Virus record (IMG/VR): IMGVR_UViG_3300032050_000394
Coordinates: 1-36,404 of that record
From: a virus
Reading direction: 5' to 3' (one strand)
DNA length: 36,404 nt
Positions within the stretch are counted from its first letter, which is position 1. Every line of letters starts with the position of its first letter. The notes beneath the pieces were generated by a model, which had not been told where the DNA came from, did no database searches, and saw only the letters and a program-made list of their open reading frames with translations. This document shows, piece after piece, positions 30,780-36,185 of the stretch. The position numbers were made by a program, and so were the translations under genes.

Positions 30780-30853
30780 GCCTGTGTAGCCCAACTGGCA
30801 GAGGCAACGGACTCAAAACCCGTTCAGTGTGGGTTCGACTCCCACCACAGGCA
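30780..30853 (+). tRNA. tRNA with anticodon CAA, short variable loop
   Basis: Full cloverleaf of 74 bases: acceptor GCCTGTG/CACAGGC (seven perfect pairs), D arm with GCC/GGC and GG in the loop, anticodon arm ACGGA CTCAAAA CCCGT with anticodon CAA (one A-C mismatch at the loop end), five-base variable region, T arm GTGGG TTCGACT CCCAC, discriminator A. CAA reads UUG (Leu), but a tRNA-Leu would be expected to have a long variable arm. The 3-prime CCA is not encoded. It lies between the small membrane genes and the deaminase. Confidence 0.85.
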
Positions 30854-32771: not shown

Positions 32772-32884
32772 TGGACCCGTTTACATCGTTCGTGTACTGG
32801 ACGCACACGTGGGACTGGTGGCACTGGTCGCCCGTTTGGGTGGCGGTGGTGGCCGTCATGGTGTGGATCTGGAAGGAGGGATGA
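32771..32884 (+). CDS. Tryptophan-rich mini membrane protein
   Basis: 37 residues, eight of them Trp: MDPFTSFVYWTHTWDWWHW followed by SPVWVAVVAVMVWIWKEG. The second part is a single membrane-spanning stretch; the first is an amphipathic Trp/His segment. Coupled to both neighbours (TGATG and ATGA overlaps), which supports its being real despite its size. Function unknown. Confidence 0.5.
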   Translation: MDPFTSFVYWTHTWDWWHWSPVWVAVVAVMVWIWKEG

Positions 32885-33096
32885 TGGAACGCACACCGGA
32901 GGAAGTTGCAGCGCTGACCGTTGAGGCCAACCGCCGATGGCGGGAGGCGCGGGAGGCAGACAGTCGCAAGTACGGCGGCTGCGAGCAGTGCCTCGATCTG
33001 GCAGGGCCGACTCACGGAGGCTCGAGTTTCTGCCAGTCGGGGTCTATCGCAAGTGGTGGGCACAGGGCACACTGCACTTGCGACTGGTGCTTCTAG
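32881..33096 (+). CDS. Cysteine-rich small protein
   Basis: 71 residues from ATG 32881 or 32884, preceded by GGAAGGAGGG. Helical, charged N-terminus (RTPEEVAALTVEANRRWREAREADSRKYGG) and a metal-site-like C-terminus CEQC...C...H..HCTCDWCF. The end looks like a zinc finger. Thirteen bases after its stop comes a tRNA-like element. Confidence 0.6.
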   Translation: MMERTPEEVAALTVEANRRWREAREADSRKYGGCEQCLDLAGPTHGGSSFCQSGSIASGGHRAHCTCDWCF

Positions 33097-33109
33097 GCAG
33101 GGCAGTACA

Positions 33110-33154
33110 GGGCGGGGTAGGCGCAGGTGACGGGTTCGAATCCCGTCCCGTCCT
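33110..33154 (+). ncRNA. tRNA-like element without anticodon arm (T1)
   Basis: GGGCGGG (33110-33116) pairs with CCCGTCC (33147-33153), one G-U pair. Directly inside is a canonical T arm: ACGGG, loop TTCGAAT, CCCGT (33130-33146). Only 13 bases lie between the 5-prime acceptor strand and the T arm, too few for a D and anticodon arm. No other 5-prime acceptor partner is present within normal tRNA distance upstream. Confidence 0.6.
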
Positions 33155-33185: not shown

Positions 33186-33353
33186 ATGATGGATGATGAG
33201 TTCGATGACTCCGACGACCCCGACTACTTCGATGCCCTTCTCGAGCAGTTCTACGAGGAGGAAATGGGGGGTTCAGTAAGCGTCTACGACTTGCTGAACG
33301 ATCCCGCGTTCCTTCGCGGTCAGTTGCCTTGGCCGCAGTTCGTTGGTGTCTAG
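33186..33353 (+). CDS. Small acidic protein
   Basis: 55 residues from ATG 33186 with AAGGAGG GGGTGAGAC in front. Extremely acidic start (MMDDEFDDSDDPDYFDALLEQFYEEE) then SVYDLLNDPAFLRGQLPWPQFVGV. No family. Acidic phage mini-proteins can mimic DNA or bind host proteins, but nothing here specifically proves that. Followed by hairpin element A. Confidence 0.6.
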   Translation: MMDDEFDDSDDPDYFDALLEQFYEEEMGGSVSVYDLLNDPAFLRGQLPWPQFVGV

Positions 33354-33363
33354 AATGACCTGA

Positions 33364-33387
33364 CCTGAGCATGTCGTTAAACTGCTC
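33364..33387 (+). repeat. Intergenic hairpin element A, copy 1
   Basis: CCTGAGCATGTCGTTAAAC followed by TGCTC. GAGCA and TGCTC pair across an 11-base loop containing CGTTAAAC. Located 10 bases after a stop codon. Two other copies: 33664-33687 and 36162-36185. No U run. Confidence 0.75.
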
Positions 33388-33421
33388 CTGTGCGTCCCCG
33401 AACCAAGAAAGGGGGTGAGAT

Positions 33422-33652
33422 ATGTTGGATCACATCGAGCGCAACTGGGTTCAGTACCTCGTTGCGTTTATCGTGGTGGTTTGCATCAGCGTTTGGGCGA
33501 TTGCGTTCACGCAGTGGCTCACGCTGCCGCAGTGCACCACGATCGCTGAGTACGGCGGTAGCAACTGGCGGAACCTGAAGGAGGGTGCCGCTACGTATGA
33601 GCGCGTCGGCAACGCGATCGTCGACTGCAAGGTGGGCAGGTACCTGCCGTAG
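33422..33652 (+). CDS. Small single-pass membrane protein
   Basis: 76 residues, ATG 33422 preceded by AAAGGGGGTGAGAT. One membrane segment near residues 11-33 (YLVAFIVVVCISVWAIAFTQW). The C-terminal ~40 residues contain two Cys (PQCTTIAEYGG..., VDCKVGRYLP) and could lie outside the cell. Follows element A copy 1 and is followed by A copy 2. Function unknown; size does not exclude a holin-like or superinfection-related role. Confidence 0.6.
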   Translation: MLDHIERNWVQYLVAFIVVVCISVWAIAFTQWLTLPQCTTIAEYGGSNWRNLKEGAATYERVGNAIVDCKVGRYLP

Positions 33653-33663
33653 CAGTCGCCCGT

Positions 33664-33687
33664 CCTGAGCATGACGTTAAACTGCTC
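33664..33687 (+). repeat. Intergenic hairpin element A, copy 2
   Basis: Same sequence as copy 1 except for one base in the loop (GAC for GTC). Exactly 300 bases after copy 1 and 11 bases after the membrane protein stop. Confidence 0.75.
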
Positions 33688-33698
33688 GCCCATCCCGA

Positions 33699-33712
33699 CT
33701 GTCGTGAGACAG
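33699..33712 (+). repeat. Hairpin element E, copy 1
   Basis: CTGTC GTGA GACAG: five perfect pairs with a GNRA-type GTGA loop, 35 bases before the next gene start. An identical copy is at 34451-34464, and a degenerate one at ~34795-34810. Confidence 0.65.
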
Positions 33713-33747
33713 CCATCCATCCCCAACACCCCGAAAGGAGGTGAAAT

Positions 33748-33948
33748 ATGAAGACCATCCGCGCCATCCTGTGGTTCGTCCGCAGGCTGCCTCGGTACTG
33801 GGCTGACGCCCGGTGCGCCGAGATGGAGGCCCGGTGGGACAGGTTCGCAGAGCGCTGCCTGACCCCCGAGCAGCGGTCTGCGTCGCAGGCTTGGGTCGAC
33901 GAGGAGGAGATCCTCCTCGAGATCCTCGACGGCGACGACATGGACTAG
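33748..33948 (+). CDS. Small basic-to-acidic helical protein
   Basis: 66 residues, ATG 33748 after AAAGGAGGTGAAAT, complementary to the full 16S anti-Shine-Dalgarno. Basic amphipathic N-terminus (MKTIRAILWFVRRLPRYWAD), acidic end (DEEEILLEILDGDDMD). All-helical appearance. No family recognised. Confidence 0.6.
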   Translation: MKTIRAILWFVRRLPRYWADARCAEMEARWDRFAERCLTPEQRSASQAWVDEEEILLEILDGDDMD

Positions 33949-33962
33949 GACCTCCGGAGTCT

Positions 33963-33987
33963 GACCCACTTGGCAACAGAACGGGTC
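33963..33987 (+). repeat. Intergenic hairpin element B, copy 1
   Basis: GACCC (33963-33967) pairs with GGGTC (33983-33987). 15-base loop ACTTGGCAACAGAAC. Preceded by GGAGTCT. Part of a four-copy family with the same loop but a changed stem: compare GCCC/GGGC in copies 2 and 3 and AGCCCC/GGGGCT in copy 4. Confidence 0.78.
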
Positions 33988-33989
33988 GT

Positions 33990-34040
33990 AGGCACGGCTG
34001 CTGGCGCAGGCGGTTGCCGGGTTCAATCCCCGGCGTGCCT
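33990..34040 (+). ncRNA. tRNA-like element without anticodon arm (T2)
   Basis: AGGCACG (33990-33996) pairs perfectly with CGTGCCT (34034-34040); T arm CCGGG, loop TTCAATC, CCCGG (34017-34033) lies directly inside. The 20-base connector contains GGCGCAGG, as does T1, and a tiny CTG/CAG hairpin. T1 and T2 differ in both stems yet stay paired. TTTT follows, so it might also end transcription. Confidence 0.6.
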
Positions 34041-34072
34041 TTTCTGTTCCCTAGTAGGAGAGGAGGTGAAAT

Positions 34073-34357
34073 ATGAGCGACTGGTTTCGTCCTAAGGCGT
34101 CCCCCCTTGGCATTGCCGAGGGTGGCGCCTACATGGGCCAGATCTGGTTCGACAACGGCTACGCCGCGTCGATCCGTCTGGAGCCGACCGACTGGACCAA
34201 GGGCGTGCCTCTTTACGAGGTCGGCCTGATCCTCGGTACGCCGGAGTCGTGGGGCCTGCTCGACGCGAGCGACGCGTTGGACTGCGACCGCGAGGTTATC
34301 CGGTACGCCACGGGCGCTTACCTGCTGGATGTCCTTCAGCAGATCCGCAGCCTGTAG
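34073..34357 (+). CDS. Unknown protein
   Basis: 94 residues, ATG 34073 after GAGGAGGTGAAAT. Mixed strand and helix: YMGQIWFDNGYAASIRLEPTDWTKGVPLYEVGLILGTPESWGLL, then REVIRYATGAYLLDVLQQIRSL. Composition and layout could suggest a small single-domain protein, no family known to me. Followed by B copy 2. Confidence 0.6.
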   Translation: MSDWFRPKASPLGIAEGGAYMGQIWFDNGYAASIRLEPTDWTKGVPLYEVGLILGTPESWGLLDASDALDCDREVIRYATGAYLLDVLQQIRSL

Positions 34358-34373
34358 TCGGACACGGAGTTTG

Positions 34374-34396
34374 GCCCACTTGGCAACAGGACGGGC
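34374..34396 (+). repeat. Intergenic hairpin element B, copy 2
   Basis: GCCC/GGGC stem with loop ACTTGGCAACAGGAC (one base different from copy 1), preceded by GGAGTTT. Follows the stop at 34357. Continues into the F module at 34402-34441. Confidence 0.78.
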
Positions 34397-34401
34397 AAGT
34401 A

Positions 34402-34441
34402 GCCGGTAGGGGTAGCGTCCCTTGCTGTCCGGTTGCGACCG
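34402..34441 (+). other. Element F, two-state RNA module, copy 1
   Basis: Hairpin AGGGG TAGCG TCCCT (34408-34422) lies inside an outer stem GCCGG (34402-34406) / CCGGT (34429-34433). CGGT (34430-34433) can alternatively pair with ACCG (34438-34441) across TGCG. The CGGT segment is shared, so the two forms exclude each other. Compare copy 2. Confidence 0.6.
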
Positions 34442-34450
34442 TGAGTGTGA

Positions 34451-34464
34451 CTGTCGTGAGACAG
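34451..34464 (+). repeat. Hairpin element E, copy 2
   Basis: Identical to copy 1 (33699-33712): CTGTC GTGA GACAG. It lies 33 bases before the ATG of the next gene, in the leader. Confidence 0.65.
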
Positions 34465-34497
34465 CCATCCAACCCCTATCACGGGAGGAGGTGATAT

Positions 34498-34707
34498 ATG
34501 GACGTGTACATCGTGCTGCGGCACGCTGACGACGTTCTCCTTGGGTCTATCTTCAGGTCTTTGGAGGAGGCGATGGCGTGGTGCGCCGATTGCTCCAACG
34601 GGGTTCGCCTCGTCTGGAAGTCGTCCCCCGGTTGCGGTCTGCAGTCTTGGACCAGCAGCGCTGACGGGTTCGGCTGGGTGATTGAGAGCAGGTTTCTCAA
34701 CGCCTAG
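34498..34707 (+). CDS. MDV...AWC family protein 1
   Basis: 69 residues, ATG 34498 after GGAGGAGGTGATAT. Layout: strand MDVYIVLRHADDVLLGSIF, helix SLEEAMAWCADC, strand RLVWKSSPG, then WTSSADGFGWVIESRFL. Two paralogues follow at 34844 and 35551, sharing MDV(Y/W) at the start and (L)xxAxAWC in the middle. Very likely a small alpha/beta fold used repeatedly by this phage. Function unknown. Confidence 0.65.
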   Translation: MDVYIVLRHADDVLLGSIFRSLEEAMAWCADCSNGVRLVWKSSPGCGLQSWTSSADGFGWVIESRFLNA

Positions 34708-34718
34708 AGCGGAGTCTG

Positions 34719-34741
34719 GCCCACTTGGCAACAGAACGGGC
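34719..34741 (+). repeat. Intergenic hairpin element B, copy 3
   Basis: GCCC (34719-34722) / GGGC (34738-34741), loop ACTTGGCAACAGAAC identical to copy 1. Preceded by GGAGTCTG. The stop of the preceding gene (34707) is 11 bases before. Confidence 0.78.
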
Positions 34742-34746
34742 AAGTG

Positions 34747-34785
34747 ACTGGTGGGGGTAGCGCCCCTGCGTTCCAGTTGCGACTG
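34747..34785 (+). other. Element F, two-state RNA module, copy 2
   Basis: Hairpin GGGGG TAGCG CCCCT (34753-34767) inside outer stem ACTGG (34747-34751) / CCAGT (34773-34777). CAGT (34774-34777) can pair instead with ACTG (34782-34785) across TGCG. Bases change in three segments together compared with copy 1 (ACTGG/CCAGT/ACTG versus GCCGG/CCGGT/ACCG), so both pairings are kept. Confidence 0.65.
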
Positions 34786-34843
34786 TGAGTGTGACCGTCG
34801 TGATGACTGGCCACCAAACCCCTAGTAGGAAAGGAGGTGATAT

Positions 34844-35095
34844 ATGGACGTTTGGGTTGTTACGTGTAACACGGAGGATGGCAAGGACCTTGTTTGTGGG
34901 GTCCATGCTGACCTCGATCACGCGAAGGCGTGGTGCCAGATCGCCACGGCAGTGGATATCGACTGGCACAAGGCCCTCACCGACTCGGCGGGTTACACCG
35001 GTGACATGGGTGGTTACGCAATCAGGAGCCAGAACCTCGGTGACGACGGTTACTACTGGTGGACTGTGCATAGCCGCCGTGTTGTTCGCTCTTGA
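34844..35095 (+). CDS. MDV...AWC family protein 2
   Basis: 83 residues, ATG 34844 after AAAGGAGGTGATAT. Start MDVWVVTCNTEDGKDLVCGV, helix DLDHAKAWCQI, then IDWHKALTD and a strand end GDDGYYWWTVHSRR. Paralogue of the 34498 and 35551 products. Followed directly by B copy 4. Function unknown. Confidence 0.65.
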   Translation: MDVWVVTCNTEDGKDLVCGVHADLDHAKAWCQIATAVDIDWHKALTDSAGYTGDMGGYAIRSQNLGDDGYYWWTVHSRRVVRS

Positions 35096-35104
35096 TCGGA
35101 GTCT

Positions 35105-35131
35105 AGCCCCGCTTGGCAACAGAAAGGGGCT
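35105..35131 (+). repeat. Intergenic hairpin element B, copy 4
   Basis: AGCCCC (35105-35110) / GGGGCT (35126-35131), loop GCTTGGCAACAGAAA. The stem is longer than in the other copies and has different bases; the loop keeps CTTGGCAACAG. Preceded by GGAGTCT. Five bases later comes element C copy 1. Confidence 0.75.
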
Positions 35132-35135
35132 TACA

Positions 35136-35178
35136 CCCTCCTCAGTGCGAGGGGAGGGAGGCGTAGAAAGGCTGCGCC
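35136..35178 (+). repeat. Double hairpin element C, copy 1
   Basis: First hairpin CCCTCC / GGAGGG with extra TC-GA pairs and small bulges (35136-35158). Second hairpin GGCGTAG, loop AAAGG, CTGCGCC (35160-35178). Lies before the gene at 35215. Confidence 0.7.
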
Positions 35179-35214
35179 AACACGCAGTTTGTCTAGCAGA
35201 AGAGGAGGTGATTT

Positions 35215-35460
35215 GTGAGGAAGCACCCGATTTGGTCGCTGACGGACGACGACTGGGAGAATTACGACCGGTATGCCTGTCCGTGCTGCTCTTGGTACGA
35301 CGCGGACGATGAGTTCGAGCGTTCCAAGTACGTGCCGGAGGAGTTTCACTGGTGGTCTTTTGTGGCCTTCGGTGACGAGGACGAGTTCCGAGAGGACACT
35401 CCCTCCTTGGACGGGTCGTCCCGTGGCACTACTGCGTTCGCCGTCAGGCGGCGCAAGTAG
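35215..35460 (+). CDS. Small acidic aromatic protein
   Basis: 81 residues from GTG 35215 after GAGGAGGTGATTT. Starts MRKHPIWSLTDDDWENYDRYACPCCSWYDADDEFER, with Cys22, Cys24 and Cys25, perhaps a metal site, and acidic and aromatic stretches (EEFHWWSFVAFGDEDEFRED), ending basic (AVRRRK). No family known. Confidence 0.6.
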   Translation: MRKHPIWSLTDDDWENYDRYACPCCSWYDADDEFERSKYVPEEFHWWSFVAFGDEDEFREDTPSLDGSSRGTTAFAVRRRK

Positions 35461-35470
35461 TGCCGCTGCA

Positions 35471-35510
35471 CCCTCCCCTTCGGGGGAGGGAGGCGTAGAA
35501 AGGCTGCGCC
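35471..35510 (+). repeat. Double hairpin element C, copy 2
   Basis: First hairpin CCCTCCCC TTCG GGGGAGGG (eight perfect pairs, UUCG loop, 35471-35490). Second hairpin identical to copy 1: GGCGTAG AAAGG CTGCGCC (35492-35510). Eleven bases after a stop. Confidence 0.8.
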
Positions 35511-35550
35511 AAATAAGCAAGGCAGCCCTGAATGTGAAAGGGGGTGAAAT

Positions 35551-35808
35551 ATGGACGTGTACACGATTTCCCTCGTTGAGCGGGGGGGTGAGGATCGGGT
35601 GATCCGTATCCAGCCGGACCTGTCTTCCGCGAAGGCGTGGTGCTGCGACCACGGGAGGACTCCTCTCCAGTGGACTGAGCAGATCCGCAACGATGTGTGG
35701 AGGAGTGCGGAGTTCTCGTACTGGAAGTGGTGGATGGCTGGCGAGGGTACTCCCGGACGCACGCTGCAGTACGTCATCTGCCGCTGGACGGTGGGTGAGG
35801 AGGAGTAG
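35551..35808 (+). CDS. MDV...AWC family protein 3
   Basis: 85 residues, ATG 35551 after GAAAGGGGGTGAAAT. Start MDVYTISLVERGGEDRVIRI, helix DLSSAKAWCCD, then PLQWTEQIRND and a Trp-rich end (SYWKWWMAGEG, LQYVICRWTV). Paralogue of 34498 and 34844 by start, AWC and the C-terminal strand with Trp. Function unknown. Confidence 0.65.
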   Translation: MDVYTISLVERGGEDRVIRIQPDLSSAKAWCCDHGRTPLQWTEQIRNDVWRSAEFSYWKWWMAGEGTPGRTLQYVICRWTVGEEE

Positions 35809-35819
35809 TGCCGCCCAAG

Positions 35820-35867
35820 CCCTCCCCCTGCAGGTAGAGGGGGAGGGAGGTGTGGAAAGGCCACACC
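35820..35867 (+). repeat. Double hairpin element C, copy 3
   Basis: First hairpin CCCTCCCCC / GGGGGAGGG (nine pairs). Second hairpin GGTGTGG, loop AAAGG, CCACACC. Relative to copies 1 and 2 two stem pairs change on both sides (C-G to T-A and A-T to G-C) and one T-G becomes T-A, while the loop is unchanged. Confidence 0.8.
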
Positions 35868-35904
35868 GCCTTTCATAACAGGGTAAACAACGAAAGGAAT
35901 CCCT

Positions 35905-36153
35905 GTGTCGAACGCTACCGCCTCGATTGACGAGGCAGAGAACGCTTTCCTTCACGACGGCGAGGAGTCGCTCGTCGCACACTTCTACTGGATCGCCGTG
36001 GTGCAGCCGATTCAGCGGGACGTGGAGGACGCGATGTACTGGTACGAGCAGCCCAAGGAGGCCCGCAAGTCGTGGGTGCTTCTGCAGTCGTGGCTGACGT
36101 ACCTGAAGGTCTTCATGAACTACACCCCGCCTGTGGGTGAGTTCGACCGCTAG
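35905..36153 (+). CDS. Small helical unknown protein
   Basis: 82 residues from GTG 35905, AAAGGA six bases upstream. Mostly helical: SIDEAENAFLHDGEESLVAHFYWIAVVQPIQRDVEDAMYWYEQPKEARKSWVLLQSWLTYLKVFMNY. Ends PPVGEFDR. The high content of Trp, Tyr and charged residues suggests a soluble helical bundle. No family recognised. Last complete gene in the window. Confidence 0.6.
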   Translation: MSNATASIDEAENAFLHDGEESLVAHFYWIAVVQPIQRDVEDAMYWYEQPKEARKSWVLLQSWLTYLKVFMNYTPPVGEFDR

Positions 36154-36161
36154 TAGTTCGA

Positions 36162-36185
36162 CCTGAGCAAGTCGTTAAACTGCTC
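36162..36185 (+). repeat. Intergenic hairpin element A, copy 3
   Basis: CCTGAGCAAGTCGTTAAAC followed by TGCTC; GAGCA and TGCTC pair. Nine bases after the stop at 36153. Differs from copy 1 by a single loop base. Confidence 0.75.

Follow-up and report, generated by a model that had tools for sequence, protein, structure and literature searches.

RESULTS

The window analyzed here is the whole of IMG/VR virus record IMGVR_UViG_3300032050_000394, a stretch of 36,404 bases. The proteins encoded on its minus strand, among them a tail sheath, a tape measure protein, a head protease, and a ribonucleotide reductase, are those of a contractile-tailed phage; the tail sheath shares 22 to 26% identity with the listed sheaths of Bacillus, Brevibacillus, and Clostridioides phages, and no DNA match to the window was found among named phages. 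The plus strand carries, from about position 33186 to 36153, an array of small genes, most of which are preceded by a strong ribosome binding site. Since neither DNA nor protein relatives of this array were found, a close comparative set is absent. Four of its open reading frames (ORFs), at positions 33748 to 33948 (66 amino acids, stop codon UAG), 34073 to 34357 (94 amino acids, UAG), 34498 to 34707 (69 amino acids, UAG), and 34844 to 35095 (83 amino acids, UGA), are each followed by one copy of an element here referred to as type B, and the copies start 6, 7, 2, and 1 nucleotides (nt), respectively, after these stops. All four copies are free-standing and lie on the coding strand directly after the stop codon. 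Relatives of the ORF at 34073 to 34357 were sought in viral contigs and none was found; the same holds for three paralogous small proteins with an MDV start and a common A.AWC motif, encoded at positions 34498 to 34707, 34844 to 35095, and 35551 to 35808.

The initial annotation had described type B as a hairpin with a conserved 15-base loop on covarying stems. The 11-mer CTTGGCAACAG occurs exactly four times in the record, always on the plus strand (positions 33969, 34379, 34724, and 35112), and is absent from a reversed control sequence. All four loops are indeed 15 nt long (1 + 11 + 3), and the stems switch as described, from GACCC/GGGTC to GCCC/GGGC (twice) and AGCCCC/GGGGCT. While this stem is real, the object to which it belongs is larger: a CGGAG directly upstream of the hairpin, present in all four copies and conserved equally (CGGAGTCTGACCCACTTGGCAACAGAACGGGTC in copy 1), pairs into the loop. 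By comparative base pairing, the copies are H-type RNA pseudoknots of 32 to 35 nt, in which the hairpin stem is stem S2, stem S1 (GGAGN...N'CUU) lies partly within the former loop and partly in the CGGAG 5' of the hairpin, and the third loop, L3, is (U)GGCAACAGAA. What had been called the loop is thus half of helix S1 plus L3.

Copy 1 (33955 to 33987) has S1 at 33957 to 33960 (GAGU) and 33968 to 33971 (ACUU), S2 at 33963 to 33967 (GACCC) and 33983 to 33987 (GGGUC), and L3 at 33972 to 33982. S1 of copy 2 (34365 to 34396) is formed by 34367 to 34370 and 34378 to 34381 and its S2 by 34374 to 34377 (GCCC) and 34393 to 34396 (GGGC); the corresponding segments of copy 3 (34710 to 34741) are 34712 to 34715 with 34723 to 34726 and 34719 to 34722 (GCCC) with 34738 to 34741 (GGGC). 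In copy 4 (35097 to 35131), S1 pairs 35099 to 35102 with 35111 to 35114, the variable pair being U-G, and S2 pairs 35105 to 35110 (AGCCCC) with 35126 to 35131 (GGGGCU). Copies 2 and 3 lie within longer intergenic sequence that is itself duplicated (88% over 58 nt) and are recent duplicates, so that the four copies amount to about three independent witnesses. A 25-element covariance model, of which the four window copies are themselves members, matched exactly these copies in the window (E values of 7e-10 to 3e-9; next match, 0.45), and a second model built without them recovered all four (1e-5 to 7e-4).

Homologues were sought with several patterns. The loop plus two G/C pairs matched 18 viral contigs, and CGGAG plus the 11-mer only gave at least 120 viral matches and 103 matches in bacterial genomes. 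After deduplication, the viral matches listed included 95 elements with a right-register stem score of at least 5 and 17 that scored 3.5 or less; because only 16 bacterial matches reached a score of at least 5 and 74 scored 3.5 or less, most of the bacterial matches are due to chance. Most other phages scanned have one type B copy each, and the stems are wholly different among contigs of 34 to 61% G+C. Short BLAST queries of type B against named phages returned weak or chance matches only, as varying stems leave little common sequence, and absence from isolates is not thereby implied.

Stem S1 was assessed in a scan in which one S1 pair was left free on both sides (CGGRG...CYUGGCAACAGAA). Among 85 stemmed elements, this pair was A-U in 23 and G-C in 62, with no mismatched combination (16.8 expected for each). 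The loop is kept but not fully invariant, since CUUGG becomes CCUGG exactly when CGGAG becomes CGGGG. The next S1 pair was Watson-Crick in 75 of the 85 (54.8 expected); the base after CGGAG was complementary to the base before CUUGG in 80 of 95 viral elements (53 expected) and, within the free-standing set, in 31 of 43 (18.0 expected). Pairing was not a selection criterion in these tests, and because related contigs are non-independent, the counts are not to be read as a probability. S2 is paired in 99 to 100% of cells across diverse contigs, with two-sided changes at every pair; the rows had been preselected for a stem, and support for S2 therefore rests on how varied the stems are and on controls with slid registers and shuffling. 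When the GACCC stem was held fixed and the loop left free in a search for homologues with unconstrained loops, 8 of 18 matches carried CUUGGCAACAG(A/G)A, and the remaining 10 had unrelated loops, with zero intermediates. The annotated notion of a conserved loop on a covarying helix is borne out. The same data bear on the idea that type B is a seam for gene shuffling, that is, a conserved block for the exchange or duplication of small genes with no RNA function. While copies 2 and 3 do lie in duplicated blocks beside paralogous genes, we consider this very unlikely: in many contigs both stems carry compensatory changes, which call for selection acting on the RNA fold, and the stems are the least conserved part, although constant stems would aid homologous recombination.

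Comparison of sequence and predicted fold gives good support to the assignment of type B as the post-tag pseudoknot of permuted two-piece tmRNA (Rfam alpha_tmRNA, RF01849). In the RF01849 alignment, a phage tmRNA has CGGAG-UUC-GGGGGG-A-ACUUGGCAACAGAA-UCCCCCC directly after the tag stop, at the 3' end of the model, and positions 317 to 355 of the model align to CGGAGUUCGGGGGGAACUUGGCAACAGAAUCCCCCCACC in viral contig L080, directly after the tag (...AA-stop). The window copies have the same order and topology as the RF01849 pseudoknot (positions ~320 to 355), namely, CGGRGN, a short L1, a variable stem, N'CYU, GGCAACAGAA, and the stem again, the same covariation, and the same location a few nucleotides past a stop codon (1 to 7 nt in the window); the module CGGRG...CYUGGCAACAGAA with two interleaved covarying stems is found in type B. 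ARAGORN predicted a permuted tmRNA around many viral copies, and 51 viral loci were classed as tmRNA by ARAGORN or by a tag-like ending (..AA-stop). Two-piece tmRNA was already known to be carried by phages (PMC9004378). Unlike in a two-piece tmRNA, the frame upstream of each window copy is a gene of 66 to 94 codons with its own start region and not a tag, four copies stand in a row, and an acceptor piece, a resume signal, and a tmRNA match are lacking; neither ARAGORN nor Rfam found a tmRNA in the window, and no tRNA-like domain, resume codon, or tag frame was seen there. In one other viral contig, type B copies at L014:499 and L014:2357 lie near a tmRNA, one of them within the span that ARAGORN assigns to a permuted tmRNA, before the 5' piece.

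The initial annotation had also suggested that the element is a tRNA-derived hairpin descended from a D arm, as its loop and 5' arm resemble the D-arm region of the tRNA at 30780; copies 2 and 3 do have a short similarity to GCCCAACTGGCA of this tRNA-Leu. This now seems scarcely credible. The likeness rests largely on GCCC, which belongs to the freely varying stem; neither ARAGORN nor Rfam sees a tRNA, by cloverleaf or covariance match, at any of the four copies; the origin is already contradicted by the covariation of S1 and S2; and the close match of the element is the tmRNA post-tag pseudoknot, which lies outside the tRNA-like domain.

Free-standing type B elements occur in about 40 other viral contigs among the matches listed. 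An ORF of at least 50 codons ends no more than 10 nt upstream of 21 of 43 free-standing viral elements, window included, versus 2.9% of random positions in the same contigs, and the other 22 have no clear standard-code ORF just upstream. No Rfam tmRNA was found in 17 contigs with free-standing copies; in a second set of 13 contigs, L060, which belongs to the 22 elements without a clear upstream ORF, has a real tmRNA at the element, and L005 has one elsewhere in the contig, 1.7 kb away. The free-standing class is imperfect, as half of the set is without a clear ORF and L096, first called free-standing, is preceded by a tag-like frame. In five related marine contigs (L026, L075, L086, L130, and L063), a free-standing type B lies 2 to 4 nt after a DUF2828/DUF7788 gene (Ro60-like, von Willebrand-type). 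A general association with this gene was considered and dismissed: the element is absent beside four distant homologues, in phages Ci1, KVP40, and DLP6 and a 735-kb uncultured phage, so the association is a lineage trait.

Stop codons in at least two frames lie within 20 nt upstream of type B at 41 of 51 tmRNA loci and 29 of 48 others, versus 17% by chance. A UGANURRG match precedes 23 of 48 free copies versus 4 of 51 tmRNA copies; its UGA ends some ORFs and its UAA ends different ones. tRNA genes lie just downstream at 3 of the 51 and none of the 48. A role as a transcription terminator was rejected, as no U run follows copies 1 to 4. An H-type pseudoknot a few nucleotides past a stop codon has the geometry of known viral readthrough signals, and type B could by its position be a recoding signal that stimulates readthrough or frameshifting of the upstream ORF. 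We regard this as highly improbable, since the spacer phase is not fixed (phase 1, 10 cases; phase 2, 7; phase 0, 4), stops in two or more frames are commoner than chance, and in tmRNA the pseudoknot follows the true tag stop. The element could also be a binding platform for a phage protein or for a factor with affinity for tmRNA pseudoknots, such as ribosomal protein S1, whose capture would control translation or dampen trans-translation. In line with this, the unpaired L3, (U)GGCAACAGAA, matches the paired positions in conservation, most of it being fixed by the search patterns, and contacts of ribosomal protein S1 with tmRNA pseudoknots, strongest with PK2, have been reported (PMC3968760). 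However, conservation of L3 is equally expected from its packing on stem S1 for folding, and placement tracks the upstream stop and not the downstream start; a binding platform therefore appears distinctly unlikely.

A second, coremin-like type of post-stop pseudoknot, also H-type (CGNC-CU-GAGCA-N-GNCG-UUAAAC-UGCUC), is present on the plus strand of the window at 33361 to 33387 (after an ORF ending at 33350), 33661 to 33687 (CGUCCUGAGCAUGACGUUAAACUGCUC; after the ORF at 33422 to 33652), and 36159 to 36185 (after the ORF at 35905 to 36153). It was found in at least 120 viral-contig stretches (L277 to L396) of 27 to 66% G+C, mostly a few nucleotides past a stop codon, and has no Rfam match. Of 101 elements, 99 have a Watson-Crick combination at the variable S1 pair (43 expected): 58 carry GUC/GAC, and nearly all the rest have another such pair there; where an upstream ORF of at least 40 codons exists, its stop most often lies 5 nt before the element. 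Intergenic matches were seen in named phages, including Nostoc NMeng1, Mycobacterium Labelle, Arthrobacter Molivia, and Moorella MTATph1, and many Staphylococcus (S. aureus) phages gave weak matches (E of about 0.9). No type B was found by a model, R1, in 838 kb of phage DNA that had been selected for the second type; the two types are therefore rarely neighbors, which makes the window unusual.

This second type has 15 bases in common with coremin (GUCCGAAGACGUUAAACUAC), a motif resistant to Xrn1 that halts both this nuclease and scanning ribosomes in vitro (PMC10520033). It contains GUCC...GACGUUAAACU with the hp1 pairing but has neither an lp1 loop of the form YGAD or YGNNAD nor a separate hp2 further on; in its loop, CUGAGCAN, GAGCA pairs with a downstream UGCUC. 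As the loop differs, the second type resembles coremin but is not a member. Type B itself has no sequence in common with the coremin hairpin GUC-YGAD-GAC-GUUAAACUAC and its spacer. Coremin, or xrRNA-C, was described in plant and fungal viruses in a search that covered RNA viruses only (PMC10520033). The window array is similar in that small structured RNAs lie near stop codons in intergenic regions of viruses and differs in that it belongs to a DNA phage and its nuclease resistance is putative. The likeness invites the reading that type B stops 5'-to-3' decay, by RNase J where present, and shields the downstream cistron in the way of coremin and other xrRNAs. The neighboring second type with its 15 key coremin bases speaks for this, as does the location of the elements between a stop and the next ribosome binding site, whereby the next gene would stay whole. 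Nevertheless, such a polarity seems rather unlikely, as type B is without a coremin match, the pseudoknot in tmRNA lies at the 3' end, with nothing downstream to protect, and RNase J may be absent from the host.

Other structures occupy the array. A tRNA-like element at 33990 to 34040 (plus strand), which starts 2 nt past type B copy 1, scored 21.8 bits with the mascRNA model, below its cutoff of 42.5 (-28 kcal/mol; z, -1.9), and is a possible RNase P processing signal. Like a second one at 33109 to 33154, which lies 12 nt past the stop of the ORF at 32881 to 33096 and has a G3-U70 pair (alanine identity), it has an acceptor stem and a T arm and no anticodon arm. tmRNA forms that lack a CDS and are of similar size have been described, and a comparable one comes from phage DS6A (PMC11915505). 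The arrangement at copy 1, a compact tertiary fold with a tRNA-like element 2 nt on, resembles the MALAT1 3' end, where mascRNA follows a stability element; unlike there, the mascRNA match is subthreshold, only one of the four copies has such an element, and the virus is bacterial. A third intergenic structure type, a double hairpin, lies after type B copy 4 at 35136 to 35178 (plus strand) and recurs after the next two ORFs at about 35471 to 35510 and about 35820 to 35867 (z, -3.2, -4.9, and -4.1). Its second hairpin is GGCGUAG-AAAGG-CUGCGCC or GGUGUGG-AAAGG-CCACACC, that is, the stem covaries and the AAAGG loop is constant. Related 70-nt structured stretches at 34397 to 34466 and 34742 to 34813, 3' of type B copies 2 and 3, show a paired change from GCCGG/CCGGU to ACUGG/CCAGU and contain GGGGUAGCGYCCC. 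Among the viral contigs, L034:1158-1346 has a RAGATH-1 hammerhead ribozyme (58.1 bits) beside a type-P1 twister match (57.5 bits, below the cutoff).

DISCUSSION

As far as we found, the 3' pseudoknot of two-piece tmRNA has so far been described solely within tmRNA, and neither Rfam 15 nor the open-access literature searched yielded a description of a free-standing form. Its occurrence by itself behind ordinary stop codons in several unrelated phages suggests a portable module with its own function.

By analogy with tmRNA, we favor, at slightly less than even confidence, the view that type B is a nuclease-resistant cap that protects mRNA 3' ends. Type B would work as a compact roadblock that marks and protects the mRNA end, which is presumably also its role where it closes the mRNA-like piece of two-piece tmRNA on the 3' side. 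The ribosome would terminate just upstream, after which the pseudoknot would refold; the polycistronic transcript would be cut downstream, perhaps, in the case of copy 1, by RNase P acting on the tRNA-like element 2 nt on; and exonucleases that work 3' to 5', RNase R and PNPase among them, would halt at the pseudoknot, leaving the 3' end of each small cistron intact. The tightly placed upstream stop codons would prevent ribosomes from melting the fold. We infer this roadblock function, which would protect or insulate mRNA ends, and its polarity because the compact, stop-guarded fold on the coding strand is like the element that ends a stable RNA piece at its 3' side and because other stable folds, one of them with the coremin GUCC...GACGUUAAACU, occupy the same post-stop place in the array. 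In this regard, the tmRNA of S. meliloti was mapped as a 214-nt mRNA-like piece and an 82-nt tRNA-like piece, both pieces being highly stable, in contrast to the precursor (PMC2873474).

Several points count against a 3' cap. That the pseudoknot stabilizes two-piece tmRNA is itself a supposition. PK2 to PK4 of one-piece tmRNA were assigned in a review to folding and maturation (PMC3968760), and coremin blocks decay in the opposite direction, 5' to 3'. In addition, the 22 of 43 free-standing elements without a clear upstream ORF include a tmRNA (L060), and the mostly single copies in other phages make a general cap fit less well. Since a tRNA gene is seldom found downstream, the RNase P idea is limited at best to copy 1.

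A broader proposal is that DNA phages use interchangeable post-stop pseudoknots, of the tmRNA type and the coremin type, as exoribonuclease roadblocks at cistron borders, which we regard as possible but doubtful. A match to the pseudoknot by itself is no proof of a tmRNA gene, and the free-standing copies make the function of the tmRNA pseudoknot directly testable. If type B acts as a 3' cap, the array points to a phage strategy in which individual cistrons would be capped with nuclease-resistant RNA. Should the broader proposal be true, the terminal pseudoknot of tmRNA and the xrRNAs of eukaryotic viruses would be one functional class, and two-piece tmRNA may have taken its 3' cap from the same pool.
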